From: Tepidimonas fonticaldi
GTDB lineage: Bacteria; Pseudomonadota; Gammaproteobacteria; Burkholderiales; Burkholderiaceae_C
Direction: 5' to 3'
DNA: 55,704 nucleotides
Assembly (NCBI RefSeq): GCF_007556755.1
Contig: NZ_VJOO01000021.1
Span: 1-55,704, forward strand
In this document: piece by piece, positions 37,732 through 44,070 of the stretch
Position numbering within the stretch: the stretch's first letter is position 1
Layout of the letters: each line of letters opens with the position of its first letter
Notes under the pieces: generated by a model
The model's database searches: none
What the model was told of the DNA's origin: nothing
What the model saw: only the letters and a program-made list of their open reading frames with translations
Made by a program: the position numbers and the translations under genes

Positions 37732-39780
37732 ATGAACGACATTCCCGCCCTGCAGAGCTACATCGCCGGCCGCTGGTTTGGCCAGACCCCTGCGCAGACG
37801 CTGCGCAGTGCCGTCAACGGACGCCCGGTGGCGGCCACGCACGCCGAGCCGATCGACTTTGCCGAGGCGCTGGCGCACGCGCGCCGGGCGCAGGCGGCGC
37901 TGCTGCGGCTGGACTTCCAACAGCGCGCCGCGCGCCTGAAGGCGCTGGCCAAGTACTTGATGGAGCGCAAGGAGGCGCTGTACGCCGTCTCCGCCCACAC
38001 CGGCGCCACGCGCCAGGACGGCTGGATCGACATCGAGGGCGGCATCGGCACGCTGTTCGCCTACGCCAGCCTCGGCAGCAACGAACTGCCGAGCGGCAAC
38101 CTGCTGCACGAGGGGCCGGTGGTGCCGCTCGGCAAGCAGGGGCACTTTGCCGGTACGCACATCCTGGTGCCGCGCGCGGGCGTCGCGGTGCACATCAACG
38201 CCTTCAACTTCCCCGTCTGGGGGCTGCTGGAGAAGTTCGCGCCGACCTTCCTGGCCGGCCTGCCGTGCATCGGCAAGCCCGCCACCGCCACCAGCTACCT
38301 GACCGAGGCGCTGGTGCGCCTGATCGTCGAGAGCAACCTGCTGCCCGATGGCAGCCTGCAGCTCGTCATCGGCGGCACCGGCGACCTGCTGGACCGGCTG
38401 GAGGGGCAGGACGTGGTCACCTTCACCGGCAGCGCCGACACCGCGGCCAAGCTGCGCGCGCACCCCAACCTCGTGCGCCAGTCGATCCCGTTCAACGCCG
38501 AGGCCGACTCACTCAACAGCGCCATCCTCGCCCCCGACGTCACGCCGGACGACGAGGAGTTCGACCTCTACGTCAAGGAGGTGGTGCGCGAGATGACCGT
38601 CAAGGCCGGCCAGAAGTGCACCGCGATCCGCCGCGCGATGGTGCCGCGCCGCCACCTGGACGCGGTGGCCGAGCGGCTGCGCGCGCGGCTGGCCAAGGTG
38701 GTGGTGGGTGACCCGGCGCTGGAGGGCGTGCGGATGGGGGCGCTCGCCTCGCACGCGCAGCAGCGCGACGTGGCCGAGCGCGTGGCGCTGCTGCGCGCCG
38801 GCGCCGAGGTGGTGTGGGACGGCGGGCCGGACTTCGCGCCGCTGGGCGACGGCACCGCGCAAGGGGCGTTCTGCGCGCCGACGCTGCTGCTGGCGCGCGA
38901 CCCGCACGGCCACGCCGCCGTGCACGAGGTGGAGGCGTTCGGCCCGGTCAGCACCCTGCTGCCGTACGACGACCTGGACGAGGCGCTGGCCCTGGCCGCG
39001 CGCGGGCGCGGCAGCCTGGTGGCCACGCTCGTGACGCGCGACCCGCAGGTGGCCGCGCGCGCGATTCCGGTGGCGGCCGCGTGGCACGGCCGGCTGCTGG
39101 TGCTGGACCGCGAGGCGGCGGCCGAATCCACCGGCCACGGCTCGCCGTTGCCGCCGCTGAAGCACGGCGGCCCGGGCCGCGCCGGTGGCGGCGAGGAGCT
39201 GGGCGGCCTGCGCGCCGTCAAGCACTACCTGCAGCGCGCCGCGGTGCAGGGTTCGCCGACCATGCTGACGGCCGTCACCGGCGAATACGTGCGCGGCGGC
39301 GCGCGCCTCGAGACCGAGGTGCACCCGTTCCGCCGCCACTTCGAGGATCTGCGCATCGGCGAGAGCCTGCTGACGCACCGCCGCACCGTCACCGAGGCCG
39401 ACATCGTCGCCTTCGGCGGCATCTCCGGCGACTACTTCTACATGCACTTCGACGAGATCGCCGCCAAGGACTCGCCCTTCGGCCGTCGCATCGCGCACGG
39501 CTACTTCGTGCTGTCGGCGGCGGCGGGCCTGTTCGTGTCGCCCGCGCCGGGGCCGGTGCTGGCCAACTACGGGCTGGAGACGCTGCGCTTCGTCAAGCCG
39601 GTGGCCATCGGCGACACCATTCAGGCGCGCCTGACCTGCAAGCGCAAGATCGACCGCGCCAAGACCGACGCCCAGGGCCGCGGCCAGGGCGTGGTGGCGT
39701 GGGACGTGGAGGTCACCAACCAGCACGGCGAGCTGGTGGCCAGCTACGAGATCCTGACGCTGGTGGCCAAGCGCGCCTGA
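37732..39780 (+). CDS. paaZ: Oxepin-CoA hydrolase / 3-oxo-5,6-dehydrosuberyl-CoA semialdehyde dehydrogenase PaaZ
   Basis: The 682-residue bifunctional enzyme opens the oxepin ring and oxidises the resulting aldehyde. Residues 1-520 are an aldehyde dehydrogenase ([21 protein letters not shown]; catalytic Cys in [11 protein letters not shown]). Residues 535-682 are a MaoC-like hydratase ([20 protein letters not shown], with [19 protein letters not shown]). Length equals that of E. coli PaaZ (~681). The isomerase PaaG that supplies oxepin-CoA is not in the window. Confidence 0.96.
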
Positions 39781-39859
39781 GCCTCTTCTACTGCGGGCGT
39801 GCGCCAAGAGGCGCGCCCCGCCCCGTTTCCCTCCCCGAACCCCTCTCCGGACCCTCGCC

Positions 39860-41062
39860 ATGACCCACGCCTTCATCTGCGACGCCATCCGCACCCCCAT
39901 CGGCCGCTACGGCGGCGCCCTGTCCAGCGTGCGCACTGACGACCTGGCCGCCAAGCCGATCGAGGCGCTGATGGCGCGCCACCCGCACGCGGACTGGGGC
40001 GCGCTGGACGACGTGATCCTCGGCTGCGCCAACCAGGCTGGCGAGGACAACCGCAACGTCGCGCGCATGGCCGCGCTGCTCGCCGGGCTGCCGGTGGAGG
40101 TGCCCGGCGCCACCGTCAACCGGCTGTGCGGCTCCGGGCTGGATGCGGTCGGCAGCGCCGCGCGCGCCATCCGCGCCGGCGAGGCCGAGCTGATGATCGC
40201 CGGCGGCGTCGAGAGCATGAGCCGTGCGCCGTTCGTGATGCCGAAGGCCGAAACGGCGTTCGCCCGCACCAACGCGGTCTATGACACGACGATCGGCTGG
40301 CGCTTCGTCAACCCGCGCATGCAGGCGCTGCACGGCACCGACTCGATGCCGGAGACGGCGGAGAACGTCGCCGCGGAGTTCGGCATCGCGCGCGAGGACC
40401 AGGACCGCTTTGCGCTGGCGTCGCAGCGCAAAGCGCTGGCGGCGCAACAGGCCGGCGTGCTGGCGCAGGAGATCGTGCCGGTGACGATCCCTTCCCGCAA
40501 GGGCGAGCCGACCGTGGTGGCGCACGACGAGCACCCGCGCGAGACGACGCTGGAGGCGCTGGCCAAGCTCAAGGGCGTGGTGCGGCTCGACGGCACCGTC
40601 ACCGCCGGCAACGCCAGCGGCGTCAACGACGGCGCCTGCGCGCTGATCGTGGCCAGCGAAGCCGCCGCGGCGCGCCACGGCCTGACCCCGCGCGCGCGCG
40701 TGGTCGGCATGGCGGTGGCGGGCGTGCCGCCGCGCATCATGGGCATCGGCCCGGCGCCGGCCACGCGCAAGGTGCTGGCGCGCGCGGGCCTTGCGCTCGA
40801 GCAGATGGACGTGATCGAGTTGAACGAGGCGTTCGCCGCCCAGGCGCTGGCGGTGCTGCGGCTGCTGGGCCTGCCGGACGACGACGCGCGCGTCAACCCC
40901 AACGGCGGCGCGATTGCGCTCGGCCATCCGCTCGGCGCCAGCGGCGCGCGGCTGGTGACGACCGCCGTCAACCAGCTGCACCGCAGCGGCGGGCGCTACG
41001 CGCTGTGCACGATGTGCATCGGCGTCGGGCAGGGCATCGCGCTGGTGCTGGAGCGGGTCTGA
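39860..41062 (+). CDS. 3-oxoadipyl-CoA / 3-oxo-5,6-dehydrosuberyl-CoA thiolase
   Basis: The 400-residue thiolase has the nucleophilic Cys in [12 protein letters not shown] near residue 90, the catalytic His in [16 protein letters not shown] and the second Cys in [10 protein letters not shown]. The sequence type ([27 protein letters not shown]) is that of PcaF/PaaJ. Beside paaZ it should do the thiolysis steps of phenylacetate breakdown and may also serve the beta-ketoadipate pathway. It ends just before the terminator of the convergent small RNA candidate. Confidence 0.93.
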
Positions 41063-41083
41063 GCGGCGGGGCGCGGCGCCCGC

Positions 41084-41116
41084 AAAAAAAGAACCCCGAC
41101 CTAAAGGGCCGGGGTT
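41084..41116 (-). terminator. Intrinsic terminator
   Basis: On the minus strand a 10-pair stem with one G-U pair (arms at 41116-41107 and 41101-41092, loop CTTTA) is followed by C and then a run of seven T (41090-41084). It would end minus-strand transcripts from the small RNA candidate and from the methyltransferase gene. Read on the plus strand it lacks a T-run. Confidence 0.85.
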
Positions 41117-41187
41117 GCAAGCCTTTTGCTGTCACACACAAAGGCACCCGCTCAGGGAGGAAAAGCGGGGAGCCGCGCGAACGGCTC
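41084..41187 (-). ncRNA. Candidate ~104-nt small RNA with anti-Shine-Dalgarno loop
   Basis: Between a good minus-strand promoter and the terminator lie three further stem-loops. They are GAGCCG/CGGCTC (41187-41170), CCCGCT/AGCGGG as read on the minus strand (41169-41147) with loop TTTCCTCCCTG, and GCCTTT/AAAGGC (41145-41121). No open reading frame of note is present. The CCTCCC loop is complementary to ribosome-binding sites, as in several known riboregulators. I could not match it to a named family; it is not 4.5S RNA, tmRNA, 6S or RNase P RNA as I know them. Confidence 0.6.
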
Positions 41188-41194
41188 AAGACGA

Positions 41195-41223
41195 AATTTA
41201 CCACAAGCTGACAGCGAATCCAA
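41195..41223 (-). promoter_or_regulatory. Promoter of the candidate small RNA
   Basis: Reading the minus strand: TTGGAT (41223-41218), a 17-base spacer, and TAAATT (41200-41195) preceded by TGG, an extended -10. This is one of the best sigma-70 promoters in the window and lies downstream of the methyltransferase stop (41265), not in front of any protein gene. Confidence 0.65.
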
Positions 41224-41264
41224 CACAAAGTCGTAAAAAAGCCACTCGAAAGCCGACGGGTGGA

Positions 41265-42470
41265 CTAACTATCACTGTTGTCATTTCTGGTTTGGAGCTC
41301 GAAGCGCAGCAGCCGGCATTCGATGGGGCCGTTGAAGAGCGGCACGCGCCGGCTGGCCTGCAGCCGTAGGCGGCGGGGCAGGTCCCGGTCGGGGGTCAGC
41401 ACCCAGGCGGTCCAGCCGCCAAAATGCGTTTTCCAATGGGCGGCCAGCCGCTCGTAGAACACGTCGGCACCCAGCCCGCCCGCGACCCCCGCGGCCTCGA
41501 TGCGTTCGCCATACGGCGGGTTGAGCAGCAGCACCCCGGGGCGGGCCGTGGGTGGCAGGCGCTGCAGAGCGTCGCCCCCGCGGAACTCCACCGCCGCCCC
41601 GACGCCGGCGCGCTCGGCGTTGCGGCGCGCAAAATCGACCATGCGAAACGCCACATCGCTGCCGTAGGCCAGCGGCGGATGACCGGCGGGCCAGGGGCGC
41701 TCGTGTGCGCGCGCCTGCTCGCGCAGCGCCGCCCAGCGGGCGGCATCGTGGGGCAGCAGCCGCTCGAACGCAAAGCGCCGTTGCCGCCCCGGGGCCTGCC
41801 GCAGCGCGATCTGCGCGGCCTCGATGACCAGCGTGCCGCTGCCGCAACAGGGGTCGAACAGCGGCACCGGCTCGCCGTTGGCGTCGGCGCCGGTCCAGCC
41901 GGTGGCGGCAATCATGGCCGCGGCCAGCGTTTCCTTGAGGGGGGCGTCGCCTTTGTCGGTGCGCCAGCCGCGTTTGAACAACGGCTCGCCGCTGGTGTCC
42001 AGCGCCAGGGTCAGCCGATCGGCGGTCAGGTGGGCGTACAGACGCACATCCGGGTGCGCGGTGTCCACGCTGGGCCGCGCACCGCAGCGCGCGCGCAGCC
42101 GGTCGCAGACGGCGTCCTTGACGCGCAAGGCGGCGAAGTTGAGGCTGCGCAGCGGGCTGCGCTGGGCGGTCACCTCGACTTTGATGGTGCGCGCGGGGGT
42201 GAACCACGCCTCCCACGGCACGTCGGAAGCGGCGGCGTACAGGTCGTCCTCGTGGCGGTAGGGGCCCTCCCACAGGCGCACCAGCACGCGCTGGGCGATG
42301 CGGCTGTGCAGGTTGAGGCGCAGCACCGTGTCCCAGTCGCCGCGCAGGCCGACGCCCGTGCGGCCCACGTGCAGGGCGTCGGTGGCCTGGCCGGTCAAGC
42401 GGGCGACCTCGTCGGCCAAGAACGGAGCGCTGCCGCCGGCGCAGGGCAGAAACAGATCGAATACGGGCAT
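41265..42470 (-). CDS. THUMP-domain class I SAM-dependent rRNA (guanine-N2) methyltransferase, RlmL-like
   Basis: The 401-residue protein has a THUMP RNA-binding domain (about 50-165) followed by a methyltransferase with LFDPCCGSGTLVIEAA near 207 and the catalytic NPPYGERI near 310. This matches the N-terminal half of E. coli RlmL (G2445 of 23S rRNA); the RlmK half is absent. It starts 4 bases after rpoN and is probably in its operon. In many relatives a ribosome hibernation factor gene follows rpoN instead. Confidence 0.87.
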   Translation of the reverse strand: MPVFDLFLPCAGGSAPFLADEVARLTGQATDALHVGRTGVGLRGDWDTVLRLNLHSRIAQRVLVRLWEGPYRHEDDLYAAASDVPWEAWFTPARTIKVEVTAQRSPLRSLNFAALRVKDAVCDRLRARCGARPSVDTAHPDVRLYAHLTADRLTLALDTSGEPLFKRGWRTDKGDAPLKETLAAAMIAATGWTGADANGEPVPLFDPCCGSGTLVIEAAQIALRQAPGRQRRFAFERLLPHDAARWAALREQARAHERPWPAGHPPLAYGSDVAFRMVDFARRNAERAGVGAAVEFRGGDALQRLPPTARPGVLLLNPPYGERIEAAGVAGGLGADVFYERLAAHWKTHFGGWTAWVLTPDRDLPRRLRLQASRRVPLFNGPIECRLLRFELQTRNDNSDS

Positions 42471-42474
42471 GGGG

Positions 42475-44070
42475 TTACAGGGTTTTGCGCAGGCTGGCGG
42501 TGGGGATGCGCAGGGCCTCGCGGTATTTGGCGACGGTGCGCCGCGCGCACTCGATGCCCTGCTCCTTGAGCAAATCCGCGAGCTGGCTGTCGCTCAGCGG
42601 CTTGCGCGGATCCTCGGCGGCGATCATTTGCTTGATGAGGGCACGCACGGCCGTGCTGGACGCGTTGCCGCCGGCGTCCGTGCCCAGGCTGGAGCCGAAA
42701 AAGTACTTCAGCTCGAAGGTGCCAAATGGGGTGGCCATGTACTTGGCCGTGGTGACGCGGCTGATGGTGGACTCGTGCAGGCCGAGTTCGTCGGCAATGT
42801 CGCGCAGCACCAGCGGCCGCATGCCCACCTCGCCGTGCAGGAAGAAGCTGCGCTGCCGCTCGACGATGGCGCGTGCCACGCGCAAGATGGTGTCGAAGCG
42901 CTGCTGCAGGTTTTTGATGAACCAGCGGGCCTCCTGCAGCCGCTGTTGCAGGTCGCCGCCGCGCAGGCCCCGCAAGGCCTGCGCATACAGGTCCGACACG
43001 CGCAGCCGTGGCAGCACGGCGGGGTTGAGCTGCACGTCGAACTGCGCCCCCTGCACGGTGACGATGACGTCGGGCACGATGATTTGTCGCTCCGCGTCGG
43101 CGAAGCGCCGGCCGGGCTTGGGCTCCAGGCGGGTCAGCAGCGCCAATCCCGCGCGCAGGGCCGCGTCGTCCAAGCCCGTCGCCTGGGCCAGCCGACGCAT
43201 GTCGCGCCGGGCGATCCATTCGATGGGCTGCTCGCACAGGGCCAGCGCGGCGCGCGCCTCGGGCGTGTTGGGCTGCTCCAGGATCTGCAGGCGCAGGCAT
43301 TCGGCCAGATGGCGCGCGCCCACGCCTGCGGGTTCCATCGCCTGCAACCAGCCGAGCGCGCGCCGCATCAGCGAGGCGACTTCCTCCTGCCGTGCTTCGC
43401 CGGCCGTCGGGTCGGCCGCCTGCACATGCCGCCACAGCGCCGCCGTCAGGTCCTCGAGCGAGTCGCTCAGGTAGCCGTCGTCGTCCAGCGACTCGATCAA
43501 AAAATACAGCGCCGCGCGCTCGTCGTCGTCCAGATGCAGGGCGAGGGCCTGCCGGTGCAGGTGGTCTTGCAGGCGCTCGGTGCTGCGCGCCAGCTCGGCG
43601 GCGCTGCCGTGTTCCTCGTCCGCCTGGCGGCCATCCCGATCGACCCCCGGTCCGTCCCACGACCAGTCGGTGTCGTCCGGGACGAAGGCGTCGTCGGCGC
43701 CCCCGGTGCCCGCATCCGCGTCCGCCGGCGTGGGCCAGTCGTCGGGCGCCGCGGGGGTGGCGCTCTCCAGCAACGCCACCGTGTCGGGCACGGCCGGCTC
43801 GTCGCCGCCGTGGGCGGGGGTGGTCAGGGCCGGATCGTCCGCCCCATCTTCGGTGTCGCCATCCGCCCCGGCCTGCGCCGCCCGCTCCCCCGCACCGTCG
43901 GTCGTCGCGTCCTCGTCGTCCGCGCGCTCGAGAAAGGGGTTGTCGGCCAGCATCTGCTCGACTTCCTGCGCCATCTCCAGGGTGGAGAGCTGCAGCAGCC
44001 GGATCGACTGCTGCAACTGGGGCGTCAGGGTCAGGTGCTGCGAGACGCGCAGCGCGAGGCCGGGCTTCAT
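42475..44070 (-). CDS. rpoN: RNA polymerase sigma-54 factor RpoN
   Basis: The 531-residue sigma factor has the N-terminal activator-interacting region (LALRVSQHLTLTPQLQQSIRLLQLS), a long acidic linker (about 50-150), and core-binding and HTH regions. The C-terminal RpoN box ARRTVAKYRE is near residue 508, followed by LRIPTASLRK. ATG 44070 gives the normal start. It directly follows lptB (5 bases), the conserved lptAB-rpoN arrangement. Sigma-54 may control flagellar or nitrogen genes; targets are not deducible here. Confidence 0.97.
   Translation of the reverse strand: MKPGLALRVSQHLTLTPQLQQSIRLLQLSTLEMAQEVEQMLADNPFLERADDEDATTDGAGERAAQAGADGDTEDGADDPALTTPAHGGDEPAVPDTVALLESATPAAPDDWPTPADADAGTGGADDAFVPDDTDWSWDGPGVDRDGRQADEEHGSAAELARSTERLQDHLHRQALALHLDDDERAALYFLIESLDDDGYLSDSLEDLTAALWRHVQAADPTAGEARQEEVASLMRRALGWLQAMEPAGVGARHLAECLRLQILEQPNTPEARAALALCEQPIEWIARRDMRRLAQATGLDDAALRAGLALLTRLEPKPGRRFADAERQIIVPDVIVTVQGAQFDVQLNPAVLPRLRVSDLYAQALRGLRGGDLQQRLQEARWFIKNLQQRFDTILRVARAIVERQRSFFLHGEVGMRPLVLRDIADELGLHESTISRVTTAKYMATPFGTFELKYFFGSSLGTDAGGNASSTAVRALIKQMIAAEDPRKPLSDSQLADLLKEQGIECARRTVAKYREALRIPTASLRKTL

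Follow-up and report, generated by a model that had tools for sequence, protein, structure and literature searches.

What kind of gene occupies the short interval between a thiolase gene and a methyltransferase gene of Tepidimonas fonticaldi, and how did it come to lie there? We analysed this locus within a stretch of 55,704 nt (contig NZ_VJOO01000021.1), hereafter the window. The original prediction had placed in the interval a minus-strand RNA of four stems that ends in a terminator and is driven by TTGGAT-17-TGG-TAAATT, and each of these parts was found where it had been proposed. The minus strand encodes a four-hairpin RNA of ~105 nt that has an intrinsic terminator and a modest promoter of the extended -10 type; its gene is flanked by the stop codon of a pcaF-type thiolase gene on one side and that of an rlmL-like gene on the other (Table 1).

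Table 1. Coordinates of the small RNA gene, its parts and its neighbours in the window.
Feature	Position	Strand	Basis or remark
3-oxoadipyl-CoA thiolase gene (pcaF), convergent with the RNA	39860..41062	+	model match
anti-hemB small RNA gene	41084..41188	-	Rfam RF02837, fold z -4.65; ~105 nt, both ends predicted
intrinsic terminator H4 (41116-41092) and U tract	41084..41116	-	terminator scan, fold
hairpin H3	41121..41145	-	fold
hairpin H2	41147..41169	-	23/23 nt identical across 12 rlmL-type RNAs
apical loop UUCCUCCCU, anti-Shine-Dalgarno-like	41154..41162	-	unpaired probability 0.98-1.00
hairpin H1	41170..41187	-	sequence variable, pairing retained in most of 12 rlmL-type RNAs
extended -10 TGG-TAAATT, 17 nt from -35	41195..41203	-	promoter scoring
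-35 element TTGGAT (3/6 vs TTGACA)	41218..41223	-	promoter scoring
rlmL-like methyltransferase gene, upstream of the RNA	41265..42470	-	best model RlmK/RlmL, 318.5 bits, below cut-off 466

The window RNA is a member of the catalogued family anti-hemB (RF02837). This Rfam model matched at 41086-41171 with 68.9 bits (E 4.4e-14, cut-off 49.5), the sole above-cut-off Rfam match in the window, and it was aligned end to end, from model position 1 to 81 of 81. The alignment and the folds showed the architecture of the family in the window RNA, namely a hairpin with a CUCCUCCCU-type loop, a second hairpin and a terminator. The small RNA candidate was upheld as an independent gene conserved in relatives, but not as an unknown one, and because the family is already catalogued the window RNA is not new in kind. 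The more interesting part, which goes beyond what is known, is how its place and promoter have changed, together with its possible unity with ErsA and sX13.

The family is widespread. At E <= 0.001, RF02837 was matched in 171 of the 200 genomes of the window's family, 160 of them over the cut-off, and in the order sample 94/120 genomes were matched (82 over the cut-off). Two genomes of the window's family, G078 and G144 (loci L006, L065, L083 and L091), carried six matches each, and in Nitrosospira briensis (L189, 741-886) the loop hairpin was seen twice, 123 bases apart, apparently in tandem RNAs. The window genome contained one copy above the cut-off, that of the window, and one weak match of 35.6 bits at L002 1501-1595 (G000:C53:4307-4401, plus strand). 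At L002, two consecutive UUCCUCCCUG stretches are followed by a terminator, downstream of an ORF that by eye resembles a FAD-linked oxidase; a similar RNA was observed in another genus (L125), and both display a long CCUCCCUG loop. The weaker RF02837 matches in part resemble, by eye, double-hairpin RNAs.

Anti-hemB of Burkholderia cenocepacia is the 105-nt ncS04, for which the accessible part of PMC5688073 gives start-site coverage and a Northern panel, the 3' end having been determined by RACE and dRNA-Seq. Table 2 of that paper shows ncS04 expression without significant change across seven conditions, and Hfq binding is reported there on the authority of its reference 17. Anti-hemB appears as a trans-acting RNA of B. 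pseudomallei in the relevant section of PMC3521395, and the relevant section of PMC6321483 mentions 24 Hfq-copurified RNAs, including Bc7 with the predicted target hemB. From the Rfam title "Burkholderia RNA 7", we infer that Bc7 and ncS04 are the same RNA.

The predicted anatomy was well supported by the fold. The folding of 41086-41193 gave a z-score of -4.65, and equal stability was reached in 0/200 shuffles. The loop of H2, which had been described as exposed and able to pair with ribosome-binding sites, was unpaired almost throughout (Table 1), and TCCTCCCTG occurs once in the window when both strands are counted. On the 3' side of H4, CTTTTTTT runs to 41084. H4 was the only terminator obtained from a scan of 39500-43000, a scan that alone proves nothing because shuffles contained on average 2.0 such sites. 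Many loci of other Burkholderiales families (several of L092-L118) have a second C-rich loop, that of the terminator hairpin, with a conserved CUCCCCUUU; of this motif the window terminator loop retains only CCCUUUAGG.

Conservation in relatives was seen for hairpin H2 with its loop and, for the most part, for the pairing of H1. In an alignment of 12 sequences (A2; 11 rlmL-type RNAs and L014, with L020 and L047 by eye still out of register), H2 was invariant and H1 covaried; 94.7% of the cells of H1 and H2 were paired, versus 33-52% when the alignment was slid. The covariation score was reached in 1/500 shuffles, with two of the five measures not significant (111/500 and 289/500 shuffles). Among 41 dissimilar Burkholderiales RNAs, the H2 loop was mostly invariant, and one pair of its stem changed from C-G to U-A in nine RNAs with zero mismatches. 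RNAalifold on alignment A1 yielded only 15 pairs, because H1 and H3 fail to line up. When the 33-nt stretch bearing H1 was folded alone, the mean z was -2.1 over 110 loci, of which 77 were below -1.5, and that of the window reached only -1.5. Single-sequence folds of 134 RNAs, among them 26 of the 28 from outside the order, placed CCUCC in an apical loop in 113 and not in 21; L002 and L108 were excluded from the promoter and fold counts. These observations bear on the view that the interval is a shared terminator region of rlmL and thiolase with chance hairpins. Such a region would account for the terminator hairpin, but no T run follows this hairpin on the thiolase strand, the Rfam match runs from end to end, the RNA is conserved away from rlmL, and H2 and H1 behave as invariant and covarying elements, all of which make this view highly improbable.

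Comparison of the genomic places indicated that the window copy has an unusual neighbour. Of 120 loci, 110 were oriented by the loop motif, after L065 and nine loci without TCCTCC at the expected place had been dropped. The hemB gene adjoins the RNA on the opposite strand in 89/110 oriented Burkholderiales loci, and an rlmL-like gene adjoins it on the same strand in 11, the window included; the remaining 10 had other or unrecognised neighbours. In the window genome, hemB is located on contig C13, where its upstream region contained no such RNA and none of the listed RF02837 matches fell. The possibility of another strong copy at hemB was rejected, there being none among the listed RF02837 matches of this genome. 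Since the window RNA lies by the rlmL-like gene and the hemB gene on C13 is without such an RNA, we read the RNA gene as relocated, with the rlmL-like gene in place of hemB as its neighbour. L014 had no rlmL within 1.5 kb, and at L245 another ORF was seen by eye between rlmL and the RNA. The thiolase of the window was 98% and 94% identical to those of the same-genus loci L020 and L047, and the rlmL-like protein on the other side of the RNA only 75% and 76%.

The position behind rlmL raises the alternative that the RNA derives from a 3'-UTR: transcription of the rlmL-like gene would continue past its end, and processing of the message would free the stable hairpins, so that the RNA would lack its own promoter. 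The two genes are on the same strand in the window and the 11 counted loci, the window has only 73 nt from the rlmL-like stop to H1, and the promoter is modest. However, hemB stands on the opposite strand in most oriented loci, and the gap between rlmL and H1 is 65-88 nt in six of the 11 rlmL loci but 462-546 nt in the other five, where the intervening stretches by eye look like another gene. Sigma70-type sites lie at a fixed distance in the clade, including TTGACA-16-TATAAT in L010 and L024, and a hairpin with a T run follows rlmL in the window, although it is weak (-6.3 kcal/mol) and was unreported by the terminator scan. Because the genes in front of this RNA differ between relatives, in most of which it diverges from hemB, derivation from a 3'-UTR is quite unlikely, and an independent small RNA gene is the preferred reading.

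The promoter claimed for this gene is plausible but weak. It has 7/12 matches plus the TG extension, and the scan of 39500-43000 revealed zero sigma70 sites of 9/12 or better, so its support comes from the conserved position in relatives. To all loci we applied one scoring scheme to the 80 nt upstream, with composition-preserving shuffles as control. Nine of the 12 rlmL-type loci had a sigma70-type score of 8 or more, compared with 3.82 expected from shuffles.

A different promoter type was found in other lineages. A sigmaE-type promoter (GGAACTT, 14-18 nt, TCNNA; 9 or more of 10) was present in 16/23 loci of other Burkholderiales families (0.26 expected) and in 18/28 loci outside the order (0.34 expected). 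All of these 34 sites had a spacer of 16 or 17, and 32 lay in the same 9-base offset range. This type was rare in the window's family (2/85 loci), with 2/73 among non-rlmL-type loci (0.44 expected) and 0/12 among rlmL-type ones; in the sequence upstream of L001, the window copy, the first filter left no sigmaE-type candidate. Sigma70-type sites dominate in the window's family: scores of at least 9 were reached in 39/73 non-rlmL-type (2.96 expected) and 4/12 rlmL-type loci (0.88 expected), against 1/23 loci of other Burkholderiales families (1.84 expected) and 5/28 outside the order (1.90 expected). Among the 118 named loci both promoter kinds were present, in 32 and 38 (0.80 and 8.20 expected). 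By eye, GGGAAC is kept by a few family members (L003, L004 and L084), and Burkholderia-type loci have an intermediate promoter appearance. Both the place and the promoter type of the RNA differ between lineages. Judged from the upstream sequences, the sigmaE-type and sigma70-type distribution is read as a putative promoter replacement within the window's family, which would make this family a natural case of such a change. As the loci are related, none of these promoter counts represent independent events.

To look beyond the order, we built a covariance model, R1, from the 41 RNAs and a few upstream bases, without the neighbouring gene. A class sample of 140 genomes yielded R1 matches at E <= 0.01 in 68, of which two belong to the window's own family. 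In the other 66 genomes, the ~1.5 kb surroundings of the best R1 match were inspected, and polA, engB or cytochrome c4 adjoined this match in 26/28 of the best-scoring genomes, in 11/20 of the next and in 2/18 of the last; this share falling with the score serves as an internal control. The 28 best genomes come from 26 families and therefore include a few close pairs. Two additional second R1 matches were without polA, engB or cytochrome c4 nearby. With lax cmscan, five of the 28 best were above the RF02837 cut-off (L261, L262, L264, L266 and L274), and at the RNA of the remaining 23 every RNA family stayed below its cut-off. Near the polA-engB locus RNA of L266, a c-di-GMP-I riboswitch was detected at 2037-2121 on the minus strand (77.9 bits).

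The polA-engB-cytochrome c4 locus is the slot of Pseudomonas ErsA, and Xanthomonas sX13 adjoins polA. The accessible part of the sX13 paper describes homologues only in Xanthomonadaceae, names Spot 42 and ar7 as polA-linked RNAs elsewhere, and raises the question of small RNAs at the polA locus of other bacteria (PMC3771888), on which the gradient found here bears directly. In Rfam, anti-hemB, ErsA and sX13 share no common clan, and a literature search that covered few subscription papers returned none joining two of sX13, ErsA, Pseudomon-1 and anti-hemB. In a class sample of the same size, RF01719 (ErsA) and RF02232 (sX13) matched 13 and 11 genomes at E <= 0.01, of which only 1 and 2 were above the cut-off. 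The ErsA matches overlapped R1 matches in 5/13 genomes (G452, G365, G428, G440 and G412) and the sX13 matches in 4/11 (G452, G379, G421 and G368). Four tandem copies near engB and polA were observed in one of these genomes (G452:C33:13149-13914; L277 / L388); all are weak RF02837 matches, and one matched sX13 with 48.3 bits and another ErsA with 37.1 (cut-offs 50), which makes this locus a possible missing link between the families.

Direct similarity between anti-hemB and ErsA or sX13 is weak, because R1 scored only 13.9 bits on the above-cut-off ErsA and 13.2 and 7.7 on the two sX13 copies, and neither RF01719 nor RF02232 was matched in the window genome at E <= 0.01. Common descent is favoured, though not proved, by the locus, the promoter type and the intermediate loci. 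We lean towards the reading that all three descend from a single old small RNA that lay at the polA-engB-cytochrome c4 locus under sigmaE-type control and used a C-rich anti-Shine-Dalgarno loop, with many members in other orders of the class falling below the Rfam cut-offs. Two changes would then have occurred in the lineage of the window: a sigma70-type promoter replaced the sigmaE-type one, and the gene left the ancestral locus for its site by the rlmL-like gene, which would have brought an envelope-stress RNA under a housekeeping promoter. The comparison thus suggests a shared one-locus origin of separately named betaproteobacterial, pseudomonad and xanthomonad RNAs.

For the action of the window RNA, trans-acting translational repression is most likely by analogy with ErsA and sX13. 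Transcription in T. fonticaldi, Hfq binding, base pairing and repression would, we infer, proceed as follows. Transcription would probably be driven by the extended -10 promoter of sigma70 type that separates the RNA from the rlmL-like gene, and would stop at the H4 terminator, with a product of about 105 nt. The exposed H2 loop UUCCUCCCU would mimic the 16S anti-Shine-Dalgarno sequence and pair with the purine-rich ribosome-binding sites (AGGGAGGAA-like) of several mRNAs, repressing their translation, probably with the assistance of Hfq at the U tract. The window genome carries an hfq gene.

The complement of the loop, AGGGAGGAAA, occurs four times in this genome: in the window RNA, in the weak second copy, at glmM (identified via NCBIfam) and at a radC-like gene (by eye). 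Both non-RNA sites end 1-2 nt before the start codon, and that of glmM is a perfect 10-nt loop match at the ribosome-binding site. The ErsA target algC encodes a phosphohexomutase related to the glmM product. Target prediction at Shine-Dalgarno regions had been suggested as a check, and the one target followed up was glmM, on 59 loci: complementarity of at least 8 nt was found in 1/30 family genomes, the window's own, and in 0/29 others, and glmM was dropped as a conserved target. In 12 clade genomes the 10-mer AGGGAGGAAA had 41 sites versus 5 for the reversed pattern. Of the 30 loci returned, 28 were scored; 11 were the RNA itself, and eight of the 17 non-RNA loci lay directly before an ORF of at least 80 aa, with no recurring gene by eye among the eight.

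A loop that is nearly invariant across the order while the glmM site is unconserved would also fit sequestration, with the RNA working mainly as a decoy that captures 30S subunits, Hfq or some other RNA-binding protein instead of pairing with particular mRNAs. This is unlikely, since mRNAs are the targets of both published relatives, sX13 and ErsA, according to the relevant parts of PMC3771888 and PMC6321483, and the pyrimidine loop should be unable to pair with the 16S anti-Shine-Dalgarno itself. As described in the sections concerned, sX13 repression requires its own C-rich loops and G-rich target motifs, is Hfq-independent and was not restored by compensatory changes (PMC3771888), and ErsA acts on the algC ribosome-binding site in an Hfq-dependent manner (review PMC6321483). 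The best overall explanation is that the window encodes a sigma70-type-promoted anti-hemB RNA of ~105 nt whose loop blocks ribosome-binding sites, probably with the help of Hfq, to which we assign a probability of roughly 0.7. The weak promoter, the unconserved glmM site, the sX13 results on Hfq and compensation, the unchanged expression of ncS04 and the two non-significant measures of the 12-sequence alignment are counted against it. For anti-hemB RNAs in general, this gives a testable hypothesis, namely a blocker of ribosome-binding sites that is sigmaE-controlled in some lineages.

Comparisons with known systems place the window RNA as follows. The Betaproteobacteria toxic small RNAs (RF02278; ncS03, ncS05, ncS27 and ncS62) share a CU-rich unpaired stretch and a terminator hairpin, but have two hairpins instead of four, and membership was rejected at 20.2 bits (cut-off 50). 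The link to the alphaproteobacterial CCUCCUCCC family made in the original prediction was not borne out. Although ar14 / NfeR1 (RF02344) has a CCUCCC-containing unpaired motif and the same anti-Shine-Dalgarno idea, it carries CCUCCUCCC in each of three hairpins according to the accessible part of PMC10746234, whereas the window RNA has one CCUCCC loop, and RF02344 was unmatched at E <= 1. sX13 is polA-linked, and its C-rich loops are thought, in the part of PMC3771888 concerned, to act on G-rich motifs near starts; it has three such loops and does not need Hfq, and with RF02232 unmatched, membership was rejected. Other-order relatives of the window RNA resemble ErsA / Pseudomon-1 in lying at the polA-engB locus, many with a GAACTT-type promoter, and pairing with a ribosome-binding site is reported for ErsA in the relevant part of PMC6321483. 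The window copy differs from ErsA in having neither the polA-engB locus nor a sigmaE/sigma22-type promoter, and membership was likewise rejected with RF01719 unmatched. With anti-hemB / ncS04 it shares the whole model, the CCUCCC hairpin, the terminator and the length of about 105 nt. The usual position beside hemB, which is outside Rfam's model, is replaced by the rlmL-like neighbour, and the window RNA differs further in its sigma70-type promoter and in a longer H3 with GUGUGACAGC, as in most of the window's family. The window RNA itself thus adds a relocated member to a family that has been little studied.
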